Below are positions 2,970 to 29,600 of a stretch of 64,000 nt of DNA, one piece after another. The translations under genes were made by a program, and so were the position numbers. Origin of the DNA: a virus. Under the pieces are notes generated by a model. It saw nothing but the letters and a program-made list of their open reading frames with translations. It made no database searches and was not told the DNA's origin. Each line of letters starts with the position of its first letter. Within the stretch, counting starts at the first letter, position 1. The stretch is taken from positions 22,539-86,538 of IMG/VR virus record IMGVR_UViG_3300035189_000033. One strand, 5' to 3'.

Positions 2970-4154
2970 GTGGCCTCGAACGCCCTTCTCACGCCTGCCC
3001 TGATCTCCAAGGAAACTCTGGTGATCCTGGAAAACAATCTGGTTGCGGCTGGCAAGGTGAACCGCCAGTTCGAAAATCAGTTCGTCAAAATCGGCACCAC
3101 GCTCACCATACGCAAGCCGAACCGGTTCAAGATCAGCCTCGGACCCGCGCTCCAGATCCAGGACATCAGCGAGCCCTCGACCTCGATCGCCATCTCGACC
3201 CAGGCGCACGTCGATTTCCAGTTCTCCAGCCAGGAACTGACGCTGACGATCGAGGAATACAGCGAGCGCTACTGCAAGCCGGCAGCCGTCACCATCGCCA
3301 ACACGATCGACGTGTCCGTTCTGGCGAACTTCACCTCGGTCTACAACGAAGTCGGCACGCCCGGCACCTTGCCGGCGAACTTCCCCGCACTCGCCGCCGT
3401 CGGCCAGCGGCTCGATGAATCCGCCGCTCCGCAGGACGGGCGCGTGCTGATCCTCAACCCCGCCGCGTACTGGTCACTGGCGAGCGGGCTGTCGAACCTG
3501 TTCACCCGTTCGGTTGCCGAACCGGCGCTAAAAGGCTTCCTGGCCGCGATCGCCAACTTCGAAATCTACGAAGACCAGAACGTCCAGTCGCAGACCGTCG
3601 GCGCACAGGGCGGCACACCGACCGTCAACGGCGCCGGCCAGACCGGGGCATCGCTGATCACCCAGGGATGGTCGAACAACATCACCGGTCTGCTGAACGT
3701 CGGTGATGTGTTCACCATCGCCGGCGTCTACGCGATCAATCCGCAAAGCCGTCAGTCCACCGGCACGCTGATGAACTTCGTCGTCACCACGGCGGCCAAT
3801 TCATCGGGCGGCGGTGCGGCGACGCTGGCCATCGCGCCGGCGATCACCACCACCGGCGCCTATCAGAACGTCTCGGCTGCACCGGCCAACAACGCCGCGA
3901 TCACCGTGTTCGGCACAGGTGGATCGACGTATTTCCAGAACATCGGATTTACCCGCGATGCGTTCGGTCTGGTGAGCGTGCCGATGGAGCTGCCGGGCGG
4001 TGTCGACTTCGCGGCGCGCGAGATGTGGAAAAACATCTCGATGCGGATCGTTCGGGCGTTCGACATTTTCAACGACGTCACCCCGTGCAGAATCGACGTC
4101 CTGTTCGGAACTTCCTGTTTTTACCCTGAGTTGGCTTGCAGGCTGACCAACTGA
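2970..4154 (+). CDS. Major capsid protein, P22 gp5-like coat
   Basis: 394 residues from a GTG start with AGGAG just upstream. The N-terminal block (residues ~5-105) has the helical E-loop-like region and the run QDISEPSTSIAISTQ. A large insert around residues 210-310 contains GLLNVGDVFTIAGVYAIN and then a β-rich stretch, as in the inserted domain of P22 coat proteins. The C-terminus resumes with a G-F-T-R-D-A-F motif. P22 coat is about 430 residues, so the length fits. It is the main structural subunit of the icosahedral head. The preceding scaffold-like gene and following tail-accessory gene support the call. Confidence 0.85.
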   Translation: MASNALLTPALISKETLVILENNLVAAGKVNRQFENQFVKIGTTLTIRKPNRFKISLGPALQIQDISEPSTSIAISTQAHVDFQFSSQELTLTIEEYSERYCKPAAVTIANTIDVSVLANFTSVYNEVGTPGTLPANFPALAAVGQRLDESAAPQDGRVLILNPAAYWSLASGLSNLFTRSVAEPALKGFLAAIANFEIYEDQNVQSQTVGAQGGTPTVNGAGQTGASLITQGWSNNITGLLNVGDVFTIAGVYAINPQSRQSTGTLMNFVVTTAANSSGGGAATLAIAPAITTTGAYQNVSAAPANNAAITVFGTGGSTYFQNIGFTRDAFGLVSVPMELPGGVDFAAREMWKNISMRIVRAFDIFNDVTPCRIDVLFGTSCFYPELACRLTN

Positions 4155-6449: not shown

Positions 6450-7175
6450 ATGACCACCGCGCTTGATCTGATCCAGGACAGCCTCGAAATGCTCGGCGTC
6501 TACGGCCCGGGCGATACCATCAGTGCGGCCGACCTCGACCGCTCATTGACCGCACTGAACGACATGATCGACTCGTGGTCCAACGAGTCGATGACGTGCT
6601 TTGCGTGGCAGCAACTGAGCTTCGCGCTGCAACCCAACATCACGCAATACACCTGCGGCACCGGCGGCTCGATCAGCACGATCCGCCCGCTGCGGGTGTC
6701 CGACGCCGCAGGGTCCGCCTACCTGCTCGATGCGGACAACAACAAATACCCGATGGACGTGCTGGGTCAGCTCGCGTTCAATCTGCGCACCACGGCGGCA
6801 GTGAGTTCCAATCTGCCGGACACGCTGTTCTACGATCCGCAGTTTCCGCTTGGGATCGTCAACATCTGGCCGACGCCCTGCCAGGTTTATCAGTGCTATT
6901 TCTACTCGTACCTGCAACTCGGCGACTTTCCGACGCCCGAAACCAACGTGTTGCTGCCGCCCGGCTACAATCTGGCGATCAAGACCAATCTGGCGATCGC
7001 ACTCAAGCCCTATTTCACCGCCGCCCAGCTTGATCCCATCGTGGTCAGCCGCGCGGCGGAATCGAAGGGCAACGTCAAGCGCAACAACAACCGCACGCAG
7101 CGGTCGGTGTTCGATCCGGAAATCATCGCCCGCGGGCAATCGACCTATAACATCAGAAGTGACCGGAACTACTAG
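6450..7175 (+). CDS. P22 gp4-like tail accessory factor
   Basis: 241 residues. The N-terminus reads LIQDSLEMLGVYGPGDTIS followed by a helix with LTALNDMIDSW, the typical opening of the gp4/tail-accessory family that plugs the portal and starts tail assembly. The middle has W-P-T-P and aromatic-rich strands, and the C-terminus is basic (KGNVKRNNNRTQR). P22 gp4 is shorter (~166 residues), but phage homologues of this size are usual. The next gene is the gp10-like stabilisation factor, which matches P22 order. Confidence 0.8.
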   Translation: MTTALDLIQDSLEMLGVYGPGDTISAADLDRSLTALNDMIDSWSNESMTCFAWQQLSFALQPNITQYTCGTGGSISTIRPLRVSDAAGSAYLLDADNNKYPMDVLGQLAFNLRTTAAVSSNLPDTLFYDPQFPLGIVNIWPTPCQVYQCYFYSYLQLGDFPTPETNVLLPPGYNLAIKTNLAIALKPYFTAAQLDPIVVSRAAESKGNVKRNNNRTQRSVFDPEIIARGQSTYNIRSDRNY

Positions 7176-7193: not shown

Positions 7194-9527
7194 GTGGCGC
7201 AATCCCCGATCCTCGGCGGCTTCTCCAGGTCGCGCTCAACTTCGGCCAGCGATAACGAGGCCTACAACCTGTATCTGGAAGTGATTGAAACCAAGGACGG
7301 CAAGGTTCCCGGCGCGCTGTATCTGACCGCCGGGCTCGACCTGATCGGCACCCTCGGGCCCGGCCCGGTCCGCGGCGTGAAACGCCTCAAGGACGTGCTC
7401 TACGTGGTGTCCGGCAACGAGGTCTACAGCCTGACACCGAACGGCACCGCCACTCTGCTAGGGCAGGTGGTGATCGGCAGCGCCCCCGTTTCGATGTTCG
7501 AGAACGGCCAGCAGATCATGATCGTCGATGGCGTCGGCGGCTGGCTCGCACCCGGCGGCTATCCGGTCACCGGCGGCACTATCACCGGCCAGACGACCAA
7601 TCCCTCGACCGGTGCGAAGGTGACCCTGACCGGCCTCGCCGGCGGGCTCTATGCGGTGGATGACACGATCACCCTGCAATCGGCAAGCGGCACACAGACC
7701 AGCTATCCAATCCTCACCGTGACCGCGGTCGCCAACAATCCGGTCACCGTCTACACGCTGGTCAATCCCGGCACGACATACGCCAGCACGGCCAGCGCCA
7801 GCACCACCGGCATTAACGGCCAGGTCGGCGCCGGTAGCGGCCTGACCCTCAATGTCACCGCAGCCGACGGGGTTGTGACGGCGGCCACGGCCGCCGCAGG
7901 CGGCGCCGGCTATGCCGTGGGTGACACCGGGCTGATCAATGTCTACTCGGAGGATGCCGTCTACCAGGTGACCGCCGAAAGCGGCGGCGCCGTCAGCGCC
8001 GTGCAGATCATCTACGGCGGGACCGAGTACGGCACCGCCAGCGCCCAGGCGACCAAGGCCGCCCCCGGCGTGCCGGCCAGCGTCGGCACCGGCCTGACGT
8101 TCGCTATCACCGCCAGTTCGGGGCCGATCACCGCCTCATCGATCGTCAGCGGCGGCAAGAACTACGTCATCGGCAATGTGGGCAAGATCAACGGCGGATC
8201 CGCCGATGCGATCTACCGGGTGAGCGCGGTGGGCGCGACCGGCATGGTGACCGGCTTCACCGTCACCCAAGGCGGCACGGTCAACGACAAGGCCGCCACC
8301 TTCACACAGAAATCGACCTCGGGATCGGGTGCGGGCCTGACCCTGACAGCCCCGACTTATGGCGCGTGGCTGGGCCTCGTGCCGGTCATGCTGCCGTTCG
8401 CCAACCCCCTTGTGGGGGGCATCTCGGACGGCTTCGGCGTGCTGGTGTTCCAGGGCACGCAGTATCTGGCCTCGTCCGACGAACTGGACCTCTCGACCTG
8501 GGAAGCGCTGGCCTACGGGGTGTCTGACTCATCGCCCGATCAGTGCATGTCGCTCGCGGTGATCCATGACGAAATCTACCTGATCAAAGAAAAGCATACG
8601 GAGATCTGGATCGATGCGGGCCTCGTGCCGTTCCCCTTCCAACTGGTCACGTCGGCGCGGATGGAGTCTGGCACCATCGCGCCGTTCTCTGCGGCGGCTC
8701 TCGGCGAACATCTCTTTTTCCTGTCGCGCAATGACCAGGGCCAGGGCATCGTGGTGCGCGCGCAAGGCTACAATCTGGTGCCGGTTTCGACGCAGGCGCT
8801 GATTGCTGAATTTGACACCTATCCGAACCTCGGCGATGCCATCGGCTACGGCCGCCAGCAGGGCGGGCATCAGTTCTATGTGCTGACCTTCCCCGAGGCG
8901 AACAAGACCTGGGTGCATGACCTGACCGCGAGCGAGATGGCCGGGTTTCCGCTGTGGCACCGGATCGCCGCCTGGACCGACGGGGCATGGAACCGCCACG
9001 CGGGCAACTGCTTCACGCCCTGGCAGGGCGCGGTCACGCGGGTCAACACCACGACCGCCTATCAGGCGCAGTCGGTCAAACTGACCACCGAGACGCTGGC
9101 CACGGCATCGGGGCTGGTGGGGCTGCCGACAGCGTTCTTCAGCGCGGTGTTCTCGGTCTGGCTCAATCTGCCCGACACCGGCGCGGCCGGTGTGGTGTTC
9201 TCCAATCAGGGCGGATCGGCAACACCCGGCTTGTCCCTCACCATCAAGAACGACGCCGCCGGATCGCCGCAGATCACGGTCGAGGCGTGGGACTCTGCTG
9301 CCGCGCCGATCGTCGCGGCAACGTATGATTTCACCAATTGGGTCGCCTGGGTGAACATCCTGATCTCGATCGACACCGCCACGCAGCAGTTGCAGGTCTA
9401 CGCCAACACGCTGGTTGCCAACGTGCTGACCGAAACGCTGCTGACGGCGGCCTCGATCACGTGGTCATCCTCGCACGCGATTGCGCCAGCGGCCACGCAA
9501 CCGTGGTCACTGGTGGCGGTGGCATGA
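7194..9527 (+). CDS. P22 gp10-like DNA stabilisation protein, N-terminal and central part, with inserted modules
   Basis: 777 residues. Residues ~1-117 and ~405-610 look like the gp10 tail-hub fold: RGVKRLKDVLYVVSG early, then FGVLVFQGTQYLASSDELDL, a TEIW motif, and the segment ending RHAGNCFTPWQG. Between them sits a ~280-residue Gly/Thr-rich insert with repeats of the type GG-x-GY-x-VGD. After residue ~612 the expected gp10 C-terminus is missing and is replaced by a ~165-residue β-sandwich-like module (FFSAVFSVWLNLPDTGAAG, LQVYANT) resembling LamG/ConA-like lectin domains. The missing C-terminus appears in the gene at 10588-11412. Confidence 0.75.
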   Translation: MAQSPILGGFSRSRSTSASDNEAYNLYLEVIETKDGKVPGALYLTAGLDLIGTLGPGPVRGVKRLKDVLYVVSGNEVYSLTPNGTATLLGQVVIGSAPVSMFENGQQIMIVDGVGGWLAPGGYPVTGGTITGQTTNPSTGAKVTLTGLAGGLYAVDDTITLQSASGTQTSYPILTVTAVANNPVTVYTLVNPGTTYASTASASTTGINGQVGAGSGLTLNVTAADGVVTAATAAAGGAGYAVGDTGLINVYSEDAVYQVTAESGGAVSAVQIIYGGTEYGTASAQATKAAPGVPASVGTGLTFAITASSGPITASSIVSGGKNYVIGNVGKINGGSADAIYRVSAVGATGMVTGFTVTQGGTVNDKAATFTQKSTSGSGAGLTLTAPTYGAWLGLVPVMLPFANPLVGGISDGFGVLVFQGTQYLASSDELDLSTWEALAYGVSDSSPDQCMSLAVIHDEIYLIKEKHTEIWIDAGLVPFPFQLVTSARMESGTIAPFSAAALGEHLFFLSRNDQGQGIVVRAQGYNLVPVSTQALIAEFDTYPNLGDAIGYGRQQGGHQFYVLTFPEANKTWVHDLTASEMAGFPLWHRIAAWTDGAWNRHAGNCFTPWQGAVTRVNTTTAYQAQSVKLTTETLATASGLVGLPTAFFSAVFSVWLNLPDTGAAGVVFSNQGGSATPGLSLTIKNDAAGSPQITVEAWDSAAAPIVAATYDFTNWVAWVNILISIDTATQQLQVYANTLVANVLTETLLTAASITWSSSHAIAPAATQPWSLVAVA

Positions 9528-9556
9528 CCACACGTAGTGGGAATAGGTATTAAACC

Positions 9557-10588
9557 ATGGGTATCTACTTTGTCGGGGCCGAGGATTGTGACTTCCTGAA
9601 TTTTGGCGGTGGGGTGGTCACCACCGATGGCAGCCATTTCCGTTCCGCCTATGCCCGATGCGCCTTGCAGATCAACGTCACGACACCGACGAGTTATGGG
9701 CTGTCGTCCTACTGGGCGTCACCAACTGGTGCTTTTACGCAATCGTCATTCTGGATGACCGCCCGCTACTACGACGCTTCAATTTCAAATGGAGGCGATG
9801 CTGGCTATCTCGTCCGCTGGAATGATTCCTCCGGGAACGCCCGCCTCCTCGTCGGCTATGACTGTCAGAGCAATGACACCGGACCATCGACGTGGCTGTA
9901 TCAATTAAAAACCGTGGACAGTTCAGGGAATGTCACCATCCTCGCCAATTCGGTAGCCGGTATCAACAGTGGCTATGTCGCCAAGCTGGATTTTTATGTC
10001 GATTATGCCAGTGCCGGCTCATTCCAAATGTATGTTGATGGCGTGCCGTTCCTCTCCTACACCGGCAACCTCACCACCAACGGGCTGACCACGTTGGCTG
10101 GCTTCAATCTCGGGCAATCCACACAGGGTAATGATAATGCGGGAATCGTGGCATGGTCGGAAGTGATCGTATCGTCATCAGACACCCGCTCCATGTCGCT
10201 TGAGACGCTTCCGCCGAATGGACAGGGCGCGACCTCGCAATGGACCGGTGATGCGACCGGCAATTCCGTCAATGAAGTGGTGCTGAATGACAGCAGCGGG
10301 ATCTCCTCGGACACCGCCGATCAGATCGAACTCTTTACCCAGCCCGGCACCTCTGTTGCCCCGTTCATCGCCGCCGTCGCTGTTACCGCCAGGGCGATGA
10401 CGGCGTCCGGTGCCCCGCAGAACATTGGTCTCCTGCTCCGTTCGGGCGGTGTCACCGGCAGCTCACCGCCAGAGGCACTGGCAAATTCGTTTGGCTTCCA
10501 TCAGTACATCTGGACGACCGATCCCGCGACCGGAAATCCCTTTGCCAGCCTCTCTACCGTGCAGACTGGCATTGAAAGCCTGGCGTAA
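9557..10588 (+). CDS. Lectin-like (LamG/ConA-type) surface protein
   Basis: 343 residues with β-sandwich character: alternating hydrophobic strands, SFWMTARYYD near residue 60, a DFYVDYASAGSFQMYVDG hairpin near 150, and a second β-rich part after residue 220. This pattern is seen in concanavalin/LamG-like phage domains that bind glycans. By eye its codons are less GC-rich than its neighbours, which suggests recent acquisition. Its stop overlaps the next ATG (TAATG). It lies between two apparent halves of a gp10-like protein. The glycan-binding role is an inference. Confidence 0.6.
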   Translation: MGIYFVGAEDCDFLNFGGGVVTTDGSHFRSAYARCALQINVTTPTSYGLSSYWASPTGAFTQSSFWMTARYYDASISNGGDAGYLVRWNDSSGNARLLVGYDCQSNDTGPSTWLYQLKTVDSSGNVTILANSVAGINSGYVAKLDFYVDYASAGSFQMYVDGVPFLSYTGNLTTNGLTTLAGFNLGQSTQGNDNAGIVAWSEVIVSSSDTRSMSLETLPPNGQGATSQWTGDATGNSVNEVVLNDSSGISSDTADQIELFTQPGTSVAPFIAAVAVTARAMTASGAPQNIGLLLRSGGVTGSSPPEALANSFGFHQYIWTTDPATGNPFASLSTVQTGIESLA

Positions 10589-11412
10589 TGACCGGCGTTG
10601 GCGTCAGCAAACTCAACACCTACGCCGCCATCGTTCCGCAGATCACAAGTCTGTCGAAATTCAACACTTACATCATCGGCAGCACCATGGCGCCGCCACC
10701 CGTCACAATCGCCGATCTGTTCTTCACGCCGACCGCGGAATTCGTCGATCTGACCGTGCTGGCGAACCGCCGCGCCTTCATCTCGGCCGCCGGCGGGGCA
10801 CAGCTCCTTAGAGCGGACGGATCAGCCCCGTTCGGCGTCACCCCGCCGGTGTTCCTCACCTCGAACGGCACGCCTGCCACCTTCGCCGACAACAACGGCC
10901 GCGGCGGCGCCTTCTCGATCTCGGGCGGGACTCTGACAGCAGGCCCATCCAACCCGCCCGGATCGTCGCAGACCGTCGTCACGTCGCAACAGAACTCGCC
11001 CGGCGCCGGCGTGCTGGGCGACTACGCCTCGGGCAACCTCTATGCGTTCAATGTCAACAGCCTGACCGACAACGGCATCCGCCGCCGCTGGCTCCGCCGC
11101 TGGCGGGCGCTGCCCAAAGCCAGCATGGCCGCTGACCGGTTCTACTCGCTGTCGGTGGCGATGCAGACCGGCCAGGGTGTGCCGAACGGCGTCGAACCGC
11201 AGGTGGTGCTGCGGTGGAGCGATGACGGCGGGCGAACCTGGTCCGATGAACGCATCGTCGCGGCCGGGCCGCTGGGTGCGACGACGCAGACCGTGAAGTT
11301 CAACCGGCTGGGCGCGACGCGGCGGTTTGGCGGATCGGACAGGATTTTTGAACTGTCATCCTCGGACCTGTTCCTGGTAGCGATCCTGGACGCAGATGTG
11401 GACGTCGGATGA
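10588..11412 (+). CDS. gp10-like stabilisation protein, C-terminal part as separate gene
   Basis: 274 residues. The N-terminus has two copies of the phage motif S-K-x-N-T-Y (VSKLNTYAAI and LSKFNTYII). Residues ~140-274 match the usual end of gp10-type hub proteins: GVLGDYASGNLYAFNV, an Arg-rich turn, QVVLRWSDDGGRTWSDER, and FELSSSDLFLVAILDADV. This part is absent from the 7194-9527 protein, so the two may assemble as a split hub. Its stop overlaps the next start (ATGA). Confidence 0.7.
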   Translation: MTGVGVSKLNTYAAIVPQITSLSKFNTYIIGSTMAPPPVTIADLFFTPTAEFVDLTVLANRRAFISAAGGAQLLRADGSAPFGVTPPVFLTSNGTPATFADNNGRGGAFSISGGTLTAGPSNPPGSSQTVVTSQQNSPGAGVLGDYASGNLYAFNVNSLTDNGIRRRWLRRWRALPKASMAADRFYSLSVAMQTGQGVPNGVEPQVVLRWSDDGGRTWSDERIVAAGPLGATTQTVKFNRLGATRRFGGSDRIFELSSSDLFLVAILDADVDVG

Positions 11413-11996
11413 TGCCAATCCCGTTTCTGATCACCGGACTGCCGCGCTCGCGGACGGCCTGGATGGCGGCGGCGGCGTCCAACGACCTGTCTATCTGCAT
11501 CCATGAACCGCTGCGCTATGTCGAACGCTGGCAGCATGTGTTCGAGACCGTATGGGGCATGTCGGGTTTCCGGTATGTCGGCGCCTCTGACCATGGCCTG
11601 GGCTTCCATCTGCCTGAAATCTTCCGGCGCCTGACCCCGCGCACCCTGATCATCGAACGCCCGATCGCCGAGGTCGAGGCGTCGCTCGCGCGGATCGGCA
11701 TTCCAGGGAGCAATTTCTGCGAGCTGCTGATGGAGGCGCTGAACGGGTTTGATCATCCACTGATCATGCGCGTGCCCTATGCCGATCTGGCGGACACAGA
11801 GGTCGTGGGGCGCTGCCTTGCCCACCTGATGCCGTTCAATCCCGTCTCAGCGGCGCGCATCGAGGCACTGCAGAAGATGAATATCCAGGCACCGAACCTG
11901 AATGCGGTGGTCGCGGAGGGCATTCGGCGCGGCCAGCAAGGCGATGCCGCCGCGCTGGTCGGTGAGGATGTTGTGGCGCGGATCCGCCTGCATTGA
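11409..11996 (+). CDS. Sulfotransferase-like P-loop protein
   Basis: 195 residues. FLITGLPRSRTAWMA (residues ~6-20) is the 5'-phosphosulfate-binding loop typical of PAPS-dependent sulfotransferases, and ERPIAEVEASLARIGI further on resembles the 3'-phosphate-binding strand. No other domain is present, so it is near minimal for the fold. ATGATG gives two possible starts, 11409 or 11412. It overlaps the gp10 C-terminal gene and the next gene by four bases each, so it belongs to the particle operon. The substrate is unknown; modification of a host glycan or virion component is a guess. Confidence 0.65.
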   Translation: MMPIPFLITGLPRSRTAWMAAAASNDLSICIHEPLRYVERWQHVFETVWGMSGFRYVGASDHGLGFHLPEIFRRLTPRTLIIERPIAEVEASLARIGIPGSNFCELLMEALNGFDHPLIMRVPYADLADTEVVGRCLAHLMPFNPVSAARIEALQKMNIQAPNLNAVVAEGIRRGQQGDAAALVGEDVVARIRLH

Positions 11997-12769: not shown

Positions 12770-13284
12770 CCTCCAGCATTCTCACCGACTATCTCGGCCA
12801 AGGGCCTGCGGCATCGCGGCCGGCGACGCCACCGATCGGCACTGCGGCGCTGGCGTTCTACTACGCCGACGATACCGGCGTGCTGTCGCTGTGGGACACC
12901 GCGACCAGCGCCTGGGTAACGGCGGGCGGCGCCGGCCTGTCGACCTCCAACACCTGGACGGCGGCACAGATCGGCGCCGTCGTGACGCTGACCGACGGCG
13001 CGACGATCACCGCGAATTTCAGTCTGGGCAACAACTTCGCGGTCACGCTTGGCGGTAACCGCACGCTGGCCAATCCATCCAGCGTCAATGCCGGGCAGGG
13101 CGGGCAGATCGTCGTCACCCAGGACGGCACCGGCGGCCGGACGCTCGCCTATGGCTCGGACTGGAAATTCCCCGGCGGCACGGCTCCTGTGCTGTCGACC
13201 GCGGCCGGTGCGACCGACATCCTGAGCTATTACGTCGTCAGCTCGACGTTTATTGCTGTCAGTCCGGCGCTGGCCTTCGCTTAA
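12766..13284 (+). CDS. Small β-rich tail-associated protein
   Basis: 172 residues. The ATG at 12766 overlaps the previous TGA and was preferred over an ATG seven codons upstream inside that gene. The N-terminus includes LAFYYADDTGVLSLWDT and the core has NFAVTLGGNRTLANPSSVNAG followed by QDGTGGRTLAYGSDWKF. That pattern recurs in phage fibre and decoration proteins. No catalytic residues are evident. The stop overlaps the next ATG (TAATG). Confidence 0.65.
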   Translation: MTSSILTDYLGQGPAASRPATPPIGTAALAFYYADDTGVLSLWDTATSAWVTAGGAGLSTSNTWTAAQIGAVVTLTDGATITANFSLGNNFAVTLGGNRTLANPSSVNAGQGGQIVVTQDGTGGRTLAYGSDWKFPGGTAPVLSTAAGATDILSYYVVSSTFIAVSPALAFA

Positions 13285-13760
13285 TGGCCGCGCACCGTTA
13301 CTGGCGGATCAATATAACCGCGGTGCTGCCAAGTGCGACCAACGTCAATCTTGCTGAGATACAAATGGCATCTTCGGTCGGGGGCGCCGATCTGTTCGGC
13401 TCAGGCACGGCTTTGGCGTCGTCTACGCAGGGCGGTATCTATGAGCCGTCTGCCGCCTGTGATGGCAATCTAACGACATTCTGGAGCAGTGCGCCCGCGG
13501 ATTCGTTGCCTCAATGGTGGGGCTATGACTTCGGCGCGGGCAACAGCGTGGTGGTGAATGAGGTTCGGATCTACCCGCTCGACTACAGTAGCGTTCTCTA
13601 CGCACCCACCGCCTTCACGCTGGACTATTCGGACGACGCATCGGCCTGGACGGCGGTGCAAGCCTTCACCACGGCCGGCTGGTCGGTCGACACGTGGCAG
13701 AGCTTTGACGTGACCGTGGCGCCGGCTGCGGTAAGGTTTCGCGGCTTGTTGGGGTTCTAG
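13284..13760 (+). CDS. F5/8-type C (discoidin-like) carbohydrate-binding protein
   Basis: 158 residues. The pattern is that of a discoidin/F5-8C β-sandwich: YWRINITA at the start, an AACDGNLTTFW metal/ligand loop, WWGYDFGAGNSVVVNEVRIYP, then FTLDYSDDASAWTAVQAF. Such modules bind sugars, so this is a candidate receptor-binding accessory of the tail. The sequence looks less GC-rich than its neighbours. It is a single-domain protein with no obvious anchor. Confidence 0.7.
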   Translation: MAAHRYWRINITAVLPSATNVNLAEIQMASSVGGADLFGSGTALASSTQGGIYEPSAACDGNLTTFWSSAPADSLPQWWGYDFGAGNSVVVNEVRIYPLDYSSVLYAPTAFTLDYSDDASAWTAVQAFTTAGWSVDTWQSFDVTVAPAAVRFRGLLGF

Positions 13761-15561: not shown

Positions 15562-17697
15562 ATGGGCCTCGATCCGACCCTCGTGCACGGGTTCCAGCCG
15601 ACGCAGAATGTCGGGCCGAACCTCGGCGGCATGCTGCAAGACGCGAACTCGATGCTGCAAATCGGCGAGCAGAAGCGGGTGTTGCAGCAGCAGAACGCGC
15701 TGCGCGGCATCCTGGGGACGCCGGACGCGCTCGATGCGCAGGGCAATCCGACCGACGCCACGCTGAAGCGGGTTTCGGGCGTGGACCCCGCGATGGGCAT
15801 GCAGTTGCGCCAGAACATGCTGGTCTCGCAGCAGCGGCAGCTTCAGACCGAGTCGATGCAGAGCAAGGCCATGCAGGACAAGATGGAGCTGCTGGCCAAG
15901 ACGTATGAGCCGATTTGGGACGACTACAATGACGCGATCAAGCATGGCGCCACGCCCGAGGAGGCGAAGCGGGCGGCGCAGGAGGGGGTGACCGAGGGCA
16001 ACAAATTTCTGACGCAGCACGGGCTTCTGGCGCCGCATGAGGTCGCCAACCTGCCGACTCAATTTGACCCCATCCAGTTCGGGCATTTCATCAAAGGATC
16101 GCAGACTTACCGCGAGGATATGACGGCGCGGGCGGCTGCGGAGCAGAAGGCGAGAACCGAGCAACAGCGCGAGCGGCAGCTCGATATTGAGCAGCAGCGG
16201 GCGGATCAGGAAAAAAGCAAAGAACAGCCCACAATGGGGCCTGATCCAAATGACCCGAGCAAGCTGGTGCCGGGTGTCGTGCGGAGCAACGCCGGCAGCA
16301 ACGACCCGCCGGTCTTCATTCCTTATCCGACCGGCGTGCAGGCGCCGGCCGGCAAAACCGCCCCAGCAGGATCAGTTGCGGCGGAGCGGTCAACACGGTT
16401 CGAGGAAGAAAAGCGCAACCAGCAGGCCGCCGGGACCTATAAGAACGACAGCGGGGTCTACGACGTCGTCGATGCGAAGCTGAAGACGATCAAGGATAAC
16501 CACTTCCCGCCCGGCACCGCGAAAGTTCTCGTCCAGCGCGCGCTTGCCGGCGATTTTTCAGGCATGACCGGCTTTAGCCGCTCGCCCGGGCTTTTGGTGG
16601 AACTCGACACCGAGCTTGCCAAGCAGATGGCGGAGCACGATCCGCCGCTGACCGGCTTGGATCTGGCGCGAATGAGGGCCGGATTTGCCGCCTACACGCA
16701 GGGCGTCAAAGCGTTCGAGGCGGGCGGCAAGCTGGAACAGCCGGTGCGCAGCCTGTCGGTCGCGGTGGATCACCTGGACCTGCTGAAACATGCGGCGACG
16801 GCGGTTTCCCAGCATGACAGCGCGACGCTCAACAGACTCCAGAACGCGCTGAAGACAGAGTTTGGTTACACCGGGCCACCGACGTTGGACGCGATCAGGG
16901 GCACGGTTGCGGCCGAAATCGAGAAGGCCGTATCGGGCAGCGCTGGTGCTGTGTCAGACCGCGAAGACCTGAAGGCCAACCTCAACAAATCGCTGCCCCC
17001 TGCCGCGCTGATGAGTGTGATCGACGGCTACGAGGGGCTGATGAGCGGCCAGCTTGGCGGCTTCCGGAAGACCTATCAACGGCTGCAAGGGATCGAGCAA
17101 GGCAGCGGTGAGGATTTTGACAAGAAATTCCTCAGTGACCGGGCGACCGCGGTCCTGACCAGACGCGGACAGATGGGCGCCGCGGGCGGCACGAATGAGA
17201 AGCCCCCCGCTGCGACCGCGCCGGCGGCAAAGGCAGATCAAGCCGCGATTGCCGTTCCGACAACGCCGGCCGAACTTGCCGCACTGCCGCCAGGGACCAA
17301 ATACCGCAGACCGACCGATGCGCCTGGCGTGGTTCGGCATGCGGCGGCGGCGACTGCGACGCCGGAGGCGGCCAAGCCAGCCGCCGCGGCGCCCGCAGCA
17401 GCAGCGGCACCCGCAGCAGCGACGCCGGCAGCCGCGCCCCCGCCCGGAGCCTACACGGTGCCGAAATCTCGCGCGGACGATCCGGACGGCACCACTTACA
17501 ACAACGGCAAGCTGGTCAAACAGGGTGGCTTCATCGTGCCGGTGAAACCGGCCGAGGCCGCACGCAAGGATGCAACGCCGCCTGCGGGCGGTCGACCGCT
17601 GCCGAAGTCGCGGGCCAGCGATCCCGACGGCACGACCTATAACGACGGAAAGTGGGTCAAGCGGGGCGATTTTGTCGTTCCTGTAGGAGCACAATAA
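15562..17697 (+). CDS. gp20-like DNA ejection / internal virion protein
   Basis: 711 residues. Residues ~1-225 are helical, with Gln/Glu-rich coiled coil (QQNALRGIL, AEQKARTEQQRERQ). Residues ~270-540 form a helical core including PGTAKVLVQRALAGDFSGM. Residues ~560-640 are an Ala/Pro linker. The C-terminus has two copies of a short motif, PKSRADDPDGTTYNNGKLVK and PKSRASDPDGTTYNDGKWVK. Position between gp7-like and very large ejection genes, plus composition, supports an internal ejected protein. The stop overlaps the next ATG. Confidence 0.65.
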   Translation: MGLDPTLVHGFQPTQNVGPNLGGMLQDANSMLQIGEQKRVLQQQNALRGILGTPDALDAQGNPTDATLKRVSGVDPAMGMQLRQNMLVSQQRQLQTESMQSKAMQDKMELLAKTYEPIWDDYNDAIKHGATPEEAKRAAQEGVTEGNKFLTQHGLLAPHEVANLPTQFDPIQFGHFIKGSQTYREDMTARAAAEQKARTEQQRERQLDIEQQRADQEKSKEQPTMGPDPNDPSKLVPGVVRSNAGSNDPPVFIPYPTGVQAPAGKTAPAGSVAAERSTRFEEEKRNQQAAGTYKNDSGVYDVVDAKLKTIKDNHFPPGTAKVLVQRALAGDFSGMTGFSRSPGLLVELDTELAKQMAEHDPPLTGLDLARMRAGFAAYTQGVKAFEAGGKLEQPVRSLSVAVDHLDLLKHAATAVSQHDSATLNRLQNALKTEFGYTGPPTLDAIRGTVAAEIEKAVSGSAGAVSDREDLKANLNKSLPPAALMSVIDGYEGLMSGQLGGFRKTYQRLQGIEQGSGEDFDKKFLSDRATAVLTRRGQMGAAGGTNEKPPAATAPAAKADQAAIAVPTTPAELAALPPGTKYRRPTDAPGVVRHAAAATATPEAAKPAAAAPAAAAAPAAATPAAAPPPGAYTVPKSRADDPDGTTYNNGKLVKQGGFIVPVKPAEAARKDATPPAGGRPLPKSRASDPDGTTYNDGKWVKRGDFVVPVGAQ

Positions 17698-20600
17698 TGC
17701 CACTCGACGGTGCTGATGACGGCGCATGGCTGGTGCCGGATAAGCCGGTTGGCAAAGCACCGCGAGCGCCGGACTTCGACCTGATCCCCGACCCGCCGGC
17801 GAAACAGGCGGCAGCGGATGATTCGGGGGATTGGCTCGTGCCGGATCGGCCGCGAGCGGCCGTCGCGCAACCGGCGGCGCAGCCAGCCGCACTCGCACCG
17901 GCACAGCCCGCAGCGCGCCCTGCATCAGCACAGACAGCCCCGGTTCAGCAGATGCCGCCGCTCGATGAGTTGGGTATCGGCCAACTCGGACCGCAAACCG
18001 GCGCACCGCCAGGGCAGAAACCGGTCGAGGTGGGACAACCGGGCGTCAATATGCTCGCCGCGATCGCGCAGGGCGCCAAAGCGGGCTGGCAGGGCGGCGC
18101 GTTCCAGGAACAGCCGGGCCTGGTTGACGCTGAACTTCAAACCCTGAAAACGCCGGTCTATGGCTCCGGTCCGACGGCTATGCCGGGCTTCGCTGCTGTC
18201 CCCGCCGTGACTGGCCTAGCCGGGCACGTCATCAACCAAGCGCTCGGCGCACTCGGCGGTGGCTTCACGTCTGGCGTCGTGCAAGCTGGCGAAGAAGTCG
18301 GGCCGAAACTGGGCGGACCGCAACTCGCACGAGACTATCTCGGCTACCTACAGGCAATCGGCAATGAGATCGGCATGGGGGGCGTGTTCGCGCCCAAAAC
18401 GATAGCCGAAGCGGAATCAGGTGCGAACACGCGGATCTTCCGGGGTGGAAGCCCCGGGCCAGGCGATTCGCCTGGGCGGGTGCTCAATTGGGATGTGATC
18501 GAACAACGGCCGCCGGCGCCGCCAGCGCGTTCTGTGCCCGGCGTCAAACGGAGCGAAGTAGACATTCAGCTTGAGTCTGATGCGTTCCTGATCGCCCATC
18601 CTGAAACCGCGGCGATCTACGACAAATACCATGGCGAAGGTGCCGCACAGAAGGTGCTCGACGCCGCTGCCAAGAAGCCCGAGGGCGGCAAGCCGCAGGC
18701 GACGACGCCGACTGCCGCGAGCGCGGCCCCCGCGAAACCAGCCGAAGAACCGCCGAAACCCTCTGCGTCCGACGATACGGTTAAAACAGCCACCAAACCC
18801 ACCGGTCCAACGGCGCCCAAAATCCGCACGATCTCGCAAATCCAGAAGGAAGACGGCGTCGGCTACAACGAGGCGGCGCGCCGCCGGGATGCTGAAAAGC
18901 TGGTGGCACAGCTGGTCTCGTCCGCCGCCGCGCCGACCGCAGCAGATGCAGGCACCCCTGCGCCGGATGGTGCGCCTGCCGCTGGCGACACCGGAACTGT
19001 GACCACTAGCGAAACACGACCCACCAAACTTAAACCGGGGCAACGATTTCACGAGTACCCGGACTCCGCGCTTGTGGCTGATGGGCTGCGTGAAGGCGAC
19101 GAGATAACCACCAGCGCAGGAGATAAATTCACCGTACTTGGGGTCTTCGCCCATAACAGGAATCGGCCTGACTTGGGCAACAGGATCGACATCCGCTGGG
19201 ATAATGGAAAAGAAGTCTCCTTCAAACCACGCGACCTCGAATCCGTCCTCGTGCCGCACTATTATTACGACGCCAACACTGGCGAGCGAAAGCTGGGCGA
19301 GGGAGCGACGATCCAGCGGGCCAAGGCTGCGGCCGAAGACGCGGCTACTGGCGGCAAGGGCACGTCCGATGAACCGCCTGTGGCGACGGCCGCCGATTCC
19401 GCCACCACGGCACCGGCCCCGGCAGATGCAGGCACCGCACCGCCCGCTCCTAGACCCGTCAGCCAGATCCAGGCCGAGGACGGCGTTCCGCTCGGGACGG
19501 CGGTGCAAACCCATGAGGCGGAGAAGCTGGCAGCCGAACAGGCGCTCACCACAACCGAACAGCCCAAAGCCGATGAGCCCGACCTCGAAAACGCCCATGA
19601 GGGACCATGGGAAGCCGCCGGCACCAACGCCGAGGGCGAGACGGTCTACCGCAACCCCAAGGGCCGGCTGGCGACATTCGATGCCGGCGTGCCGTGGCTG
19701 GGTGCGGCGGACGGCTCGGACGACGACAACAAGCGGCTGAAGGTGGTCAAGCCCGTTGAGGCGGCGGCGGCACCAGAACCCCGCCCGGTCGAGCAGATCC
19801 AGGCCGAGGACGGTGTTGGCCTCGGTGCTGCGGTGCAGACGCACGAGGAGGAGAAGGAAGCGGCGAAGAAGGCTGAACAGGAGGCGGCAGGCGAAACCGA
19901 AAAGCCCGAGAAGAAGCCCGCGGCGAAGAAAGCCAAGCCCGCCGCGGCCGAACCGGAGGATGAGGCGCCCGCCGAACCGGCCGCCGAACCATCCGGCGAT
20001 CAAAAGACTCCGGGAAAATCCGGGATTAAAGCGAACGAGAAACCGCAACAAACGCAGCCCGCCCAGTCGCCCTCGGGCTCCTTAGTGATGGCGCCGATCG
20101 GGGACGACTATTTCCCGCCCGTCCAGTCGGGGCAGAAGTTGCGCACACAATCGGGCCGCGACATCACGGTCCCGACGTTCAGCAGCGGGTCAAACCGGGC
20201 GGACAATCTCGCCCGCCGCAAGCTCAACGCCTGGCTGGCGGACGAGACGCGCAAGGAAGTCGCCGCGAGCGGGGCTGACAGCTATCTGGCCGGCATTGTG
20301 GCCGGAATGAACCCCAAGAACATGTCGCAAACCGACCGCGACACCGCGAGCGATATCCTGTTCGGGGCGGATGGTCCGAAAGCCGCTCCCAAGGCGGAAC
20401 CGGCCAAGAAACCGGCGGCTGCACCCGAAGCCGCAGCGCCGGCGACGCCGGTCACGAAACCCTTCACGTCGCAAGACATCGGAACGAAGGTGCGGCCGAA
20501 GCCGGGCAGTGGCCTCGATCCGGTCAAGAACGCGGGCATTATCTCGCACGTCCAGACATCGCCGCAGGGGCCGAAAATTTCGGTCAACGGCGGCCCGCAC

Positions 20601-23600
20601 TTCCTGGGATCGGACTTCGAGCGCGTGCCGGAAGCGATCCCTGTGACACCCGAGGCGCTGCACGACCGTATCATCGCCCAGCTTCAGGCCGACACCAGGC
20701 TGCAAGCGGTTTTGTCGAACGCCGAGGAAAGCCCCGATGGCGCGCGCGAGACGGTTCGCAAGGCATACCGCGCCGCGCTGGGCCAGATGCTGGCCGACGC
20801 GGATATGCCAGACCTGCACGCTATCGCTGCCGCGTCGGATGCGTTGCGCGACAGGCCGATCGGCATGGATGACGTGCGCGAGATCACGGCGGCCCGCCCG
20901 GGAGCCGCACCCGAACCGGCTGCAGAAGCCACCGGCACGCCGACCACCGACGCGAAACCCGCCGCACCCGCGCCAGCCGCAACGCGCACGATCACACCCG
21001 AAGAGCCAACTTACGATCCCAAAGACGAAGATCAGCGGAACGCCCCGGTTGGGGAGTTTGGCTGGAGAGACCTCGGGGGAGGATACGATTATCGCTTTGG
21101 CGAAACGGGTGATGATCGTGTCCGGCGCCGATTTATCCAGGTCAGAATTCTCGACAACTACAACGACCCAACCGATTGGTTCACTTGGAACACGGTTCGC
21201 GCGGAATCGCTCGACATGACACTTCAGGCGCCCCTGGTGCACAGCTACGTGCGCAAGGGTCGGGACGGCGAGATGGAGCCGGATGAGGTCTGGCCGGAGC
21301 ACGGCCCGGAGATCGAGCACCGTTTACGCGAAGCGGCGAAGCAACAAGGTGACCAGCAAGGTCTACCCGCACCTGATTTGCAAACGCCGGGCGGAAGCGC
21401 CATATCGGAAACTCAGGAGTCCGCAGATGGCGATCGACCCGACAGTGCTGAAGTGGGTGAACCGACAGGTGGCGGACCTCGCGCATCGGGGGCTGGTGCC
21501 CGGAAGCCCAAGGGAAACCGACCTGCTGCAACACTGGCTCCAGAATCGGCCGAAGATGATGCACCGGCTGGACTCAGCGGGGATGGCGGAGAAGCTGGCG
21601 TTCGTCCTGGATCAGAAGCGGTGGGAGGCGCGCCAGCAGTACATAGCGGCGGGGATGCCGCCACCGGACGCGGAGGAACAGGCGATGAGGGAGTGGTGCC
21701 TGATGGAGCCGGAGGACGAACCCCAAACCCAGCCGTTACCCGCCCCAATTTCCACATTGACGACCCAAAGCGAATAATCGGCGGCACTGGACCTAAGCAG
21801 CGTTTCGCCCGCAACCGGGCCGCTTTAAAGGCGCTTGAAGACATCCAGGCAGAAGGCCGCGATCCGACCCAGGAAGAATTGGAGACCATGGCCGGGTTCA
21901 TCGGCTGGGGCTCGTTTGGCCAGGAGGTCTTCCAGGGCAGTTTCGAACGGCAACCCTACCGCGATGGATGGGAAGAAGAAGGCCGTTGGCTGCGCGAGCA
22001 CCTGGGCAAAGAGGCGTGGGACAGTGCCCGCGACTCCATCCGCAACGCCCATTACACCGACCCGCCCACCGTCGCCGCGATGTGGGACATGGTTCGCCAC
22101 ATGGGTTTCTGGGGCGGGCGGGTGCTCGAACCGTCCATGGGCGTCGGCAACTTCTTCGGCCTGATGCCGCGCGACCTGATGGGTCAAAGCGATCTGACCG
22201 GCATCGAGAAGGAAAAAACCACCGGCGAAATGGCTAAGCTGCTGTATCCGCACGCCGGTATCCACGTGCGGGGCTACGAGGAAAGCAAAACCGCAGATAA
22301 TTTCTACGATCTGGTTATCGGGAACTGGCCGTTCGCTGCGCAAAGCCCGCCCGACCGACGCTATGACAGGCTCTCGCCAAGCCTGCACAATTACTTCTTC
22401 CTCAAGGCGCTGGATCAGGTCCGCCCCGGCGGGCTCGTGGTCGGCATCACCAGCAACGGGACGATGGACAGCGCCGGCCGCGCCGCCCGGCTGGAAATGG
22501 CGAAGAAGGGCAAGCTGATTGCCGCGTTCCGCCTGCCGTCTGGCGCGTTCAAGGATTACGCCGGGACTAGCGTCGTCGCCGACATCATCATCCTGCAGAA
22601 GCGGGCGCAACCGCTGGCGAATGCCGTCGATGAGCCATGGATCGATGCCACGGAGATGAGCACCGGGCACGGCGACATCCGGGTGAACCGGTATTTCCAG
22701 GATCACCCCGAAAACGTGCTGGGCACCCTCGATTGGGGCCACGGCACCACCTCGGGGCGCCCGGGGATGATCGTGCATCGTCCGGACGACCTGGAGCAAC
22801 GGCTGCAAGCTCTGGCGGCAACGCTGCCAACAGACGCCTATCAGCCAGTGATCCGGGGCAAGGAACCGCGCTTTCTGGTCAACAACACGACCGACCGGCA
22901 CGGCAGCATCGTCATTGGCGACGACGGCCATCTCTACCAAGTCCAGGGTGAGCGGCTGACCCGGCTTGACGACCTGAAAAGCGGGATGACAACAGGGCCG
23001 GCCAAGGTGGTGAAGGCGCGCGAAGATCAGGTTCGCCGCATGGTCGCGATGCGCAAGGCGTATGGCGCGCTGATCGACGCCGAGCGGGACGGCAAGCCGG
23101 AAGCCGACACGCTGCGCAAGTCGCTGAAGGCGCAGTACGACCAGTTCCGCGCCGAGCACGGCCCGATCGGTAAATCCGATGGCTTGCGTGTGCTTGACCG
23201 GATGAAAGACCCTGGCCGTTCGGCGGTTGAATCGCTGGAACGGCCGGACGGGACGCCTTCACCCATTCTGACCGAGCCGACGGTGCGTTCGAGGCGGAGC
23301 CTGGAAAACCCCTCGATCGCCGACGCATTTGTCCTGGCGCGAAACGAGCAGGCAAATTTCGACCTCGACCGCGTCGCCGAACTGACCGCCAAGCCGCGCG
23401 CCGCGGTTGAGGATGTGTTGCTCGACCAGGGCGCCATCATGCGAACGCCGGGCGGCGGTTTTGAGGCGACCGACGATTATTTGTCAGGCAACGTCCGGCG
23501 CAAACTGCGTGAGGCCAAGGAAGCCCTGGCCGCTGGCGATGAGAAAATGCAGCCGTCGATCGATGCGCTGACCAAAGTTCTGCCGCCAGATACGCCGTAT

Positions 23601-26600
23601 TACAACATCGAGGCGAAGCTGGGCGCCACCTGGGTCGGCGATGACGCCTACCGGTCGTTTATCGGCGACCTGTTGAACCTGACACCCGATCAGCGCGCGG
23701 GCGTCGATGTCCGCTTCACCGGGAGCCGCTGGCGGGTGCGGTTCGGTGACCGTGCCATCAACGGCAAGGCCGAGGCCAGGACTGTCCACGGGCACGAAGA
23801 TTACCCGTTCAACCAGTTGATCATGGCGGCGATGGGCAACCGCTCCGTCAAAATCACGTACCGGGACGATGACAACGTCAAGCACACCGACGACAAGGCG
23901 ACCGAAGAGGTCAACGCCAAAGTCCAGGATCTGAAAGAGAAGTTCACCGACTGGGCGTGGTCGGACCCGGAACGCAAGGTGGCGTTCGAACAAGCCTTCA
24001 ACGAGACGATGAACGCCATCGCCAAGCCGCGCTTTGACGGCTCGTTCATGGATATGTCGGGGATGGCGCTGCGCCGCGGCAATGACCCGTTTTCCATGCG
24101 GCGGCATCAGCTTAACGCCATCTGGCGCGGCGTGGCGCTTGGGCGCGGACTGTTCGCCCATGAGGTCGGCACCGGCAAGAGCTACACCATGGCCGGGATC
24201 GCTGTTGAAGGCCGCCGCTATGGCAAATTTCGCAAGCCCGTGGTGTTCGCGCACGGCGCCAACAGCGCCGCCGTCGCCCAAGAGTTCCAGGACATGTATC
24301 CGGGCGGCAAGTTCTTCTACATCAGCACGCTAAAGCCCGACCAGATCGCCACCAGCCTGCGCCGCATCGCCAACGAGGACTGGGATGCGGTGATCATGCC
24401 GCACAGCCTGATCGACCGCATGGCGCTGACCAAGCCGACCCTGGTGGCATTGGCGGCGGAGCAAATTGCCGAACTGGAAAACGCGGCGATCGAGGCGGCG
24501 GCGGAAGATGACATTACGCTTACGCCCGAAGAAATTTACAGCCTGATCGAAGAGTCCAAAACGGACAAAAAGGCGATGGGCCGTCTGCGCAGCCCGACCG
24601 CGAAGGATGTTGTCCGGCAAATCCAGTCGCTTCTGAACAACATCGAGAAGCAGGCCAGCCGTGCCTCGAAAGAGGACGCCGTGCCGTTCGAGCAACTGGG
24701 CATCGACGCAATTCTTGTCGACGAAGCGCACGAGTTTAAAAAGCCGCCGTTCGCCACGGCGATGAAGATGCGCGGGCTGAACACCCAGTCCAGCGACCGC
24801 TCCATCGCGCTGGACTTCCTGACCAAATACGTCAAGGCCAACAATGCCGGGAAGGGCGTGTTCCTGTTCACCGGGACGCCGGTGACCAACACGTTGAACG
24901 AAATCTTCAACATGGCTCGCTACTTCATGGATGACCGGATGGCAGATGCCGGCATCAAGGAGTGGGACGCATGGTTTAACACTTTCGCCGACGCGACCAA
25001 CGACATCGAACTGACCAGCACCGGCGAGATTGAGCCGGTGAAACGGCTGGCCGCGTTCAACAACGTCGATGAACTGGTGCGCCAGATGTCGGAGTTTGTT
25101 GACGTCGTCCAGGCCAAGGACATGCCCGAGTTCAAGCCGCGACCGACGCCGTCGGGCAAGACCCTGACATCGCCCGACCTCACCGCGGAAGAGCTTGATT
25201 TCCTGATGAACGGCCGGACCCTCAAGCCCGAGGGCCGCCCCTACGTCAAGGTGATGACCGACGTCGGCGAGATGTCGCCCGCCCAGGTGGACATCCTCGA
25301 CGAACTGCGTGAACTGGCCCGAGAGTTCAAGACTGCTGACGGGAAGCAGAAAAAGGAGTGGATGCAGGAGGGTGACGAGCGGGTGCCGATCCGCATCGAA
25401 ACCAACTCCGCCAACACTGGTATCGACCCGAGGCTGTACAACCCGGACGCGCCGGACACCGAAGACAGCAAGATCAACCGCATTGTGCGCAACGTGCTGC
25501 GCCACTATGGCGAGCCGGACGCCGCGCAGGCGATCTTCCTCGATCGCGGCTTCAATCCTGTGAAGTCGTCCGAGGGGCGGGCGAGCCGTTTCGTGGTGGT
25601 CGATGAACTGATCGCCAAGCTGGTCGAGGGGGGCATCCCGCGCGAGCAAATCGCCGTCGTCGCAGGCGGGATGAAAGCGGAGAAGAAGAAAGAGATCGCC
25701 GACGGCATGAACTCGGGCAAGTACCGGATTGCCATCGGCCAAAGCGGCACGTTGGGCGTTGGCGTGAACATGCAGGAACGGCTGCGCGCCATCCACCACT
25801 TTGATGCGCCCTGGCGTCCGGGCGATCTGGAGCAGCGCAACGGCCGCATGAACCGCCAGGGCAACACCTGGAACATGGCCTACGAATACCGCTACGTGAC
25901 CGAAGGCATCGACGGCCGCCGCTGGCAGGTTCTTCAGGTTAAAGACAAGTTCATCAAGGCGTTCATCGCCGCGTTCAACGACACCAGCGGCAAGCGCATC
26001 GGCAATATTGAGGGCGATGCGGCGGATATGTCGGAAGATGAGGACTTCTCGAAGACCTTGTCGGCCGCTGCCGGCGATCCGAGGATTATGATCAGGGCCA
26101 AATACAAGGCCGATGTGGAGCGTTTGCAGCGCCGCGAGCGGTTGCACACCAGGGGTCAGGCCGAGGCGATACAGCTTGCCCGCAGTCGGCGGCCGATCGC
26201 CCAGCGTTTGCAAGAGCAGGCCGCAGCGCAAGGCCGTTACGCCGATCGCTGGGAAGCATCGGTTGCCCGTGCGGCGAAGGCTGCGGAGGCCGATGGAGAC
26301 GACCGCAAGTGGTATGAGATTGACGGCGACAAAGCCCAGGCGGCGGCCAAAATCGCTAACCTGGAAACATCGCTCGCGGGTTGGGACGATCAAATCGCCA
26401 AGGCGCGGAAGGCGCTGCAAGAGGCGAAGACGGCAAACAATCGGTTCGAACATATCGAACGGCGCCTTGACCGGCTGATTGGCGCCAAAAACCGGGCGCA
26501 GGCCGCTGTTGAGACCGTCAGGTCCACCGGGCGCTGGTTTGATACCGGCGCCGATCTTCAGGATACGCTTGACAAGGCGATCACTGAGGTCGCCAGGGGC

Positions 26601-29600
26601 GAGAAGCGGAAACTCGCGACCGTGGGCGGTTTTGATATCGTCGGTAACTGGAGCAGCCCGTTCAACTTCTTCGAGGCGCCGCGCATTGAGATCTACGACC
26701 CCGCAAGCGGGGAAGTGGTAGACTGGGTAACCGGATTGACGGTGCTGCGCATCGCCAATGAACTGAACCAGCGGCGCCAAAAACAACAATCCTGGGCGAC
26801 TGACGCCGCCGAGAAAATGGCGTCGATCCCCGCGCTGGAAGCCGCTGGCAAGCAGGATTTCCCGCAGCAGGAAAAGCTGACCAAGTTGCGCCAGCAGCTT
26901 GCCAAGCTGGAAGACGACCTACAGGCCAATCCAAACCCGCCGCCGTCCTGGCTGCGCAACGGCGCGCCGATCGACACCGATATCTACGTGGATGGAGAGC
27001 CCCGCACGGTGCGTGGGCATCGGGTGGTGGACGACTATTTCCTGGTCACCGACGAGGGCGAAGTGCCCTACCTGGCGGCGATGGACGCCAACGGGCTGCG
27101 GATGTTCACGGTTCACGAGCCGCCGCAGGTCGTGTCGCGGGAAACGCCAGACTGGGTGAAGCCGCATCTCGAAGCGACCAAGGGCGTCTCCGAGGGTGAC
27201 CCGCATGTCTGGCACGGCGAACTGGTCTGGCACAACCGCGACCTGGCGCTGATAAGGGGCACCACGAACCTGTGGGGGCCGGACGAAACGGCGTTCCTGG
27301 GGTTCAAGAAGGGCGTTCCTGCCGAGCCGGGCCGCAACCTCATCGGCATGATGTCGCCGAAGGGTTTCAAGCCGCAGGAGTGGGAGCGGCTGGGTGAAGC
27401 GCGCGACGACTACGTTGCCCGCGAGGCGAACAAGGCGGCGCTGGCGGCCGCGGCACAGCCGACGCCCGCGAGCGGGTTCCAGCCGACGCCGGGCCTGGAC
27501 TGGACGGTGGATGAGACTGAGCGTTGGGTGCGCGGGCTGCCGCGGGGCGGGCTGGCCGAGGGATCTGGGGGCATCTCCGTGCCGCTCTACAGCGCGGTGC
27601 AGCGGGCGGCCGACGCGCTGAAGCAGGCCAAGGGCACCGGCCAGCAGATGCTGGCGCAGATCGTCAAGACGCCCGGGGTGAAGCCGGAAGAGATCGAGTG
27701 GATGGGGCTCGATGATTGGCTGAAGTCGCAGCCCAGCGTGACCAAGCAGCAGATCCAGGATTTCGTCGCGGCGAACCGGCTGGAGGTGCGGGAAGTCACC
27801 AAAGGCGACTATCGGGCCCGGCTTGAACCGGCGCACACAGCGGTCAGTGAAGCTGCCGACCGGCGACAGATCGCGGCCGAACGGCTGGAGCGCGGCGTGG
27901 ATCAGAACGGCTACACGGTCGAGATCGACGGCGAGCGCTTGTATCATGACGAGATCATGCGCGGGCTTGCTGATGGCGCAATCAAGCCGGGCGATTTGCC
28001 CGTGGCGCACGGGTTACGTTCCCGTGCCGCGCTTTTTGTCGAGGCTGTCGCCGACGAAGCGCAGGCCGAGGCCAAGCTGAAGCAGGCGCAAGAGCGGGTC
28101 AGAGCCAACCCAGACCCAACCAAGTTCGGAGGCTGGCTGGCGCCGTTCCAGCCCACGGACCAATACCGCGAGATCGTATTCACTTTGCCGGCGCCAGAAC
28201 CGTCGCCTGCTGGCGACATTGAGAGGCTACAGAACGGTAAGTTTCGGGTTACTTACGGCGGATCGGGTGACGTGTTTGCTACGCGGGCTGAAGCCGAAGC
28301 GGAAACCCGGCGACTGGGCGAAATCTTCAACAAAACAAATGATTCACGGGTTTTTCGTGGTGGGCATTGGAGCGAACGGAACGTCGTGGCGCATGTCCGC
28401 TTCGATGTAGTCGAGGCGCCGGACGGCGCGCGCGTGCTGATGGTCCACGAGGTGCAAAGCGATTGGCATCAGGCGGGTCGAAAGAAAGGCTACCAGACTG
28501 GCGAAAAGCCCAAGGGCGCGGGCAATTTCATGGACTGGACCGCGCGCCAGGGGATCAGCGCGGACGACGCGGGCCGGATCTGGGAATACCGAGAAAAGGG
28601 CGACCCCAACACGCCTGACAACGTGATCTACGCGCGCTGGCGGCAAGAGAGCGACGCGGCGATCGCCGCCATCGATCGCTGGAACCATGCGGTGCCGGAT
28701 GCGCCATACAAGACCACGTGGCCTACGCTGGTGATGCGGCGGACGATCAAATACGCCGTGGACAACGGCTTCGACCGGATCGCGTGGTCGCCGGGTGCGG
28801 TGCATGCGGATCGCTACGACCTGTCCAAGCAGATCAGCCGCGTCGAATATGACCAAAGCCCCAACAACCCCGAGGGGGGCTCATTCAAGGCGTTCGATAA
28901 GAGCGGCAGAGCGGTTATCAACCGCTACGCCAAGACGGCCGAACTGCCAGACATGATCGGCAAGGCGGCGGCTGACAAACTGCTGGCGCAAAAGCCCGAA
29001 GGCGACGGCATCACACGGGGCAACAGTCTGAAGCGAACGCTTCGCGGCCTCGATCTGAAAGTCGGCGGCGAGGGGATGACCGGCTTCTACGACGACATTC
29101 TGCCCAAGACGGTGCAGAAGATCGTCGGCAAATACGGCGCCAGGGTGGGCAAGAGCGAGATACCGACGGGCGGCGGCAATGCTGCGGCGCGTGCCGAGTA
29201 TGCCCAGGAGATTGAGGACATCGAGGCCGCTATCGTCCACAACGAAGCGGCCGGCGCCGAAGAGCACTACCTCGACCAACTGCGGGACCAGTTGGCAGAG
29301 GTTGAAGCCCAGATGATGCAGGACACAATGGATCGTTCCGCGCAGCCCGGCGCGTCCGCCGTCCACTCCTTCGACATCACGCCGGCGCTGCGTGACGCGG
29401 TGCGGACTGAGGGGATGGCGCTGTTCGAGCGCAAGCCGGGTGGTGCGGATAGGCCAGCCAGCCCGGCGCCGGCGACGAAACCAACCTGGGCGACGCCGCT
29501 GGCCAGCGATATCAACGGCACTGTGGCATGGCAGAGCAAGGGGCTGGCGCTAATCCAAGGGCACTCGATCAGCGGCAAACGCATCTACGTGCCGGCCAAG

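Follow-up and report, generated by a model that had tools for sequence, protein, structure and literature searches.

In short-tailed phages, variation in host recognition is generally attributed mostly to fibres and spikes, with the tail hub regarded as a conserved DNA conduit. Ig-like and other accessory domains are also found appended to phage structural proteins, in some cases by frameshifting. The described hubs closest to the locus examined here are those of the P22 gp10 type, i.e., gp10 of P22 itself (PDB 8u10, 8eap) and the hubs of Sf6 (7sg7), Pam1 (7eeq), and Pan3 (9vyg), along with "tubeB" of PMC10386132, all of which belong to the same sequence family (PHROG 578) as our locus. Within this hub family, the conserved portion is noted to face the inside of the tail (PMC10386132), which would leave the outer loops free to vary; moreover, the abstract of PMC7241545 provides precedent for tube or hub proteins in adsorption. 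In the openly licensed literature searched, no description of a split gp10 hub was found, although one may exist elsewhere.

Our locus comes from IMG/VR record IMGVR_UViG_3300035189_000033 (86,538 bases). The window, i.e., the whole stretch of DNA analyzed, is 64,000 nt long and corresponds to record positions 22,539-86,538; the two hub genes, the middle gene, the adaptor-like gene upstream, and the segments delimited within the hub genes lie on its + strand.

The gp10-type hub gene and its surroundings

A sequence-only reading of the window had proposed that a gp10-like tail-hub protein is divided between two genes, with a third gene of different composition lying between them, and all three open reading frames were located where it had placed them. 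The hub N chain (7194-9527; 777 aa) contains the gp10 N-terminal and middle part, a beta-repeat insertion, and a first lectin-like segment, and the hub C chain (10588-11412; 274 aa) closes with the gp10 C-terminal part (11011-11412), as delimited by alignment with split and intact relatives. The N chain matches PHROG 578 (head closure Hc3, gp10 type) with E 2.4e-53 over two stretches, the better of which aligns aa 412-615 to profile positions 150-345. In the C chain there is a single matching stretch (E 2.1e-12), aligning aa 142-272 to profile positions 345-468, such that the matches of the two chains meet at profile position 345. Start and middle are thus found in the first gene and the C-terminus in the last, as had been proposed, and intact genes of other phages (e.g., those of Rhodoferax phage P26218 and of MW202557) match the two pieces next to each other. 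Across the whole 86,538-base record, the N part was matched once and the C part once, and no intact gp10 was found. Membership in the gp10 family is clear from sequence and context, with the exception that the single polypeptide typical of the family is replaced by two open reading frames in different frames with a third gene between them. Profile comparison confirms the hub as a P22 gp10-type protein encoded as two separate pieces.

The beta-repeat insertion inside the N chain (7566-8384), recognized by comparison with plain gp10s and relatives, is present in all split relatives, partially present in the intact hubs of L014 and L016, and missing from plain gp10s such as L018. The middle gene (9557-10588; 343 aa) gives a full-length profile match to PHROG 6368 (residues 1-342 on profile positions 1-327 of 328; E 1.4e-32). 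Its deviating composition was borne out (GC 57% and GC3 0.67, versus 66-67% and 0.84-0.85 in the hub parts) and is as expected for a recent arrival. The TAATG overlap already recognized by the sequence-only reading is indeed present, coupling the end of the middle gene to the start of the C chain.

The gene neighbourhood is likewise that of P22-type hubs, which share the same placement by a P22-type coat gene and an adaptor-like gene. In the window, a P22_CoatProtein match (E 6e-44) lies at 2970-4154, and a head-tail adaptor-like gene (6450-7175), matched by PHROG 12985 (E 7e-34; family function unknown) and at its N-terminus by the PHROG 637 adaptor Ad3 (E 3e-5), lies directly upstream of the hub and stays beside it in relatives. 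Two adaptor-like genes occur in a row upstream of the hub in L005, L008, and L010, and in L010 one of these is apparently interrupted by a segment of the beta repeat that is also inserted in gp10. Downstream, a gene at 11409-11996 overlaps the C-chain end, is matched by a PHROG named hydrolase, and is conserved after the hub in L002, L007, and L008; its start, FLITGLPRSRTAWMAA, looks like a putative sulfotransferase-type P-loop. Further along are a small gene (13284-13760) with an F5/8 type C (galactose-binding-like) domain (E 3e-12) and, beyond the tail genes, a single 4364-aa open reading frame (17652-30746) that is well conserved over much of its length in an 88.4-kb relative (G001, below). 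The same relative contains several partial matches to an open reading frame of short degenerate repeats (A-S/T-P-L/A-E-S/T type) at 322-1497.

The shared break, the halved domain, and the differing modules

Alignment-based scans of viral contigs identified the relatives of this hub; single-protein scans with the N part recovered five loci only, making alignments necessary, and the C part alone as query returned no confirmed relative from these contigs. Nine phages, all uncultured, carry the split hub: the window, L002/L004, L003 (its locus truncated by a contig end), L007/L013, L008, L009, L010, L012, and L031-L033. Their N chains are 55-77% identical to that of the window and end at the same place in all nine except L008, where the chain is extended to 862 aa. 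In five relatives (L002, L007, L010, L012, and L031), the start of the C chain overlaps the end of the N gene as ATGA. For the window compared with L002, dN/dS is 0.24 for the N hub part, 0.34 and 0.26 for the first and second lectin-like segments, and 0.35 for the C hub part, compared to 0.20 for the neighbouring adaptor-like gene; by this measure, both hub pieces are under purifying selection.

These data bear on whether the gene is merely broken, i.e., a pseudogene, the relic of a defective phage, or an assembly error. P22 and most relatives have a single gene, and the window derives from a metagenome-derived virus record, both of which would fit such an explanation. However, the break is common to independent contigs, dN/dS is well below 1 in both pieces, the frames are open with starts coupled to upstream stops, no second hub is present in the record, and one genome pairs a single N chain with two C chains (see below). 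We thus regard a broken gene as scarcely credible. The sequence-only reading had left a split hub and a broken gene side by side; a break found in nine distinct phages, with constraint on both pieces, settles this in favour of the split hub.

The N chain closes with a segment of ~166 residues (9027-9524), and the C gene carries a second segment of ~106 residues (10693-11010) ahead of its hub part; neither is present in plain hubs, and the second is conserved in all relatives with an available C chain. In L007, the module at the break contains an unbroken domain that matches the profile of the first segment and then that of the second, collinearly and in one frame, with 28 and 29 bits for the halves separately and 53 bits joined. 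Because this match is ordered and in the same frame, the two segments are the halves of one domain. An earlier suggestion of a lectin-like domain fused to the end of the N chain was therefore partly right: the domain is there, but only as a half, the other half opening the C gene. The joined domain gave no Pfam, PDB-sequence, or strong PHROG match, lectin and LamG families or structures included, for which reason "lectin-like" is to be read as a descriptive name only; as a query against 50,697 phage records, it returned nothing. Beta strands are predicted for the first half from a poor model of the window's N chain. This model, built from eight sequences, was too poor for further use, and a fold search from it was meaningless.

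What lies between the halves differs among phages. Module and C chain share a single reading frame in L002, L007, L009, L010, L012, and L031: HAF repeats are fused to the C chain in L002 and L010 (and in L012, just under the curated cut-off), L007 combines beta repeats, the unbroken lectin-like domain, and a bacterial Ig domain, and the fused modules of L009 and L031 are without family assignment. In L008, a tail-fibre gene (Gp53-like_C, E 1e-13; PHROG 4209) and a small open reading frame stand between the hub halves, and in L003 and the window the module is a separate gene. Apart from the HAF group, the modules are mutually unrelated by BLASTP, with conserved flanks on either side, a pattern of module exchange.

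In the window itself, the end of the N gene bears an ATGACC, the sequence at which relatives begin their C chain, but here it leads into a mini-ORF of only 9 codons (MTTRSGNRY; 9524-9553) and a stop. This is apparently a relic of the ancestral C-chain start, with the C chain now starting at the TAATG. There, a short leader of SKxNTY repeats (10588-10692) stands where relatives have fused modules, and this leader is absent from every other hub locus. Full-length relatives of the middle gene, 27-29% identical to it, occur in Brevundimonas phages (e.g., ON529863); in Brevundimonas phage Polewnik, the PHROG 6368 gene is located between the genes for the tape measure and the tail tip, and the next gene bears short K-xx-Y repeats comparable to the SKxNTY repeats of the window. 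The PHROG 6368 gene and the repeats may thus have moved together. Only short imperfect repeats were found at the module, with no element-like ends, and an Rfam scan at the module detected no group I or II intron and no other family.

The ATGA overlap of C and N frames in several relatives also raises the prospect that the pieces are joined on expression into one hub chain, whether by programmed frameshifting (reviewed in PMC5009743), intron splicing, or protein splicing, since a -1 shift could fuse the two frames. We consider such joining improbable because the window, L003, and L008 have whole genes between the two pieces, and because no intron family was found; the family matched by the middle gene, moreover, is one of phage tail regions and is neither an intein nor a homing endonuclease.

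A second break site, an unsplit sister, and two C chains in one genome

The sequence-only reading had proposed looking for intermediates among relatives, and these were found: one sister has an uninterrupted hub, other relatives carry domains inserted in frame, and still others were split independently. An intact relative (L018) was modelled with confidence from 51 alignment rows that included the window's pieces (pLDDT 92.6, pTM 0.91). The model shares the beta-propeller fold of P22-type hubs, superposing on P22 gp10 (TM 0.86 to 8eap_D and 0.84 to 8u10_1) as well as on the Sf6, Pam1, and Pan3 hubs. The window-type break falls at a turn at L018 residues 336-337, between strands 329-335 and 338-343; judging from the model, such a hairpin turn is a natural site for domain insertion.

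A different lineage has its hub interrupted at L018 residues 392-402, a site that in the model, as with the window-type break, lies in a loop between adjacent strands. There, L096-L101 carry an in-frame insert of ~174 residues within a single open reading frame, and L102, L024/L103, and L025 are split, L102 into three genes (N chain, middle gene, and C chain). The second-break forms make up one clade apart from the window's group (SH-aLRT 100, quick tree), and L120, outside this clade, is uninterrupted at the site. Similarity to the L096 insert was found for the middle gene of L102 (22.3 bits, a score reached by 0/500 shuffles) and, marginally, for that of L024. That a domain found inside the hub in L096 is a free gene between the halves in L102 constitutes the best support for association of free modules with the hub. 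A corresponding kinship of the L096 insert with the window's middle gene or the L025 module was not supported, with scores within the range of shuffles.

It could also be that the hub is truly split and the genes and modules at the break are passengers in insertion-tolerant DNA, located off the virion and with no role in host recognition. The break in L025 contains a glycosyltransferase-like open reading frame (Glycos_transf_2, E 2e-4, below the curated cut-off) that is unlikely to be structural, and the window's own module is unfused and of foreign composition. Conversely, module and C chain are in one frame in six phages, a tail-fibre gene occupies the break in L008, the PHROG 6368 genes of phage Polewnik are found amid tail genes, and the free L102 gene resembles a domain inside the L096 hub. 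On this evidence we judge passengers unlikely overall, the window's own middle gene being the likeliest candidate.

Record G001 (IMGVR_UViG_3300047331_000009, 88.4 kb; loci L004 and L039) encodes a single N chain but two C chains, which differ in their modules. The second C chain (L039:5948-7705) lies ~60 kb from the hub operon, flanked by an ATP-grasp-like gene and a tail-collar gene; at the matching place in the window, no second C chain is present and the ATP-grasp-like gene is directly followed by the tail-collar gene. In G001, the gene after the hub continues from one end of the record to the other and only one mapping of the coat gene is obtained, which argues for one circularly permuted genome as opposed to a join of two phages.

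The unsplit sister (L042/L043) encodes its hub in a single open reading frame of 741 aa with 62-75% identity to the window's hub parts, the beta-repeat insertion being present and the lectin-like domain absent. The hairpin of this sister, GGYVTGQATSGGAGVLGDY, is similar to the two lectin halves at their outer edges, as would be expected after deletion of the lectin-like domain. In the tree, L042 falls inside the split group (88/95 with L007), and a single clade of split phages excluding L042 is neither supported nor rejected (AU p 0.19). Together, these features suggest domain loss and re-joining of the hub in this sister.

A probable two-chain hub and its relation to known systems

We consider it probable that the window encodes a two-chain hub rejoined by complementary lectin halves and displaying exchangeable, probably host-binding modules. 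As the two chains are made, the halves would fold together into one lectin-like domain, which, along with the hub's own contacts, would bring the chains into register at the beta-hairpin turn, allowing the hub to assemble as a ring. The break inside the lectin-like domain would serve as the module-exchange point, with modules either fused ahead of the C chain or, in the case of the window, encoded as a separate gene between the chains. Such modules would most likely be displayed outside the tail, aiding adsorption; assembly, display, and recognition, and any sugar binding, are inferred. The weakest step is the proposal that the window's PHROG 6368 product sits on the hub, its gene being free and fused to neither chain. 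Separate production of the C chain allows a phage to encode multiple versions of it, as one relative does. By extension, one N chain might work with interchangeable C chains, such that the hub ring of a single particle mixes recognition modules and such that modules are gained, lost, and moved between free and fused forms via the split lectin-like coupling domain; this broader scheme is tentative, and we are inclined to doubt it.

A hub cut at a hairpin turn and accompanied by exchangeable modules, with a similar arrangement having arisen at a different loop in a second lineage, raises the prospect that a core part of the tail may also act in host recognition, as a platform on which displayed modules can be exchanged. 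If confirmed, this would provide (i) a natural split-protein coupling pair, (ii) a testable route for swapping recognition modules with the conduit undisturbed, and (iii) a warning that annotation pipelines would label such hub halves as unrelated hypothetical proteins.

Compared to described systems, the likenesses and departures are several. For its tube or hub proteins, the abstract of PMC7241545 mentions neither a split nor an exchangeable module. The PHROG 6368 genes of Brevundimonas phages occupy siphophage tail regions after the tape-measure gene, whereas the window's copy lies inside the hub locus. As with appended accessory domains, the window has accessory, probably surface-binding domains on a conserved virion protein; appended domains, however, sit at chain ends, whereas the window's carrier domain is located mid-hub and is itself cut, the hub being two gene products. 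Finally, in contrast to the one chain of P22-type hubs, the window's hub is encoded as two chains, contains a beta-repeat insertion and a lectin-like domain cut in two, and is accompanied by exchangeable modules.
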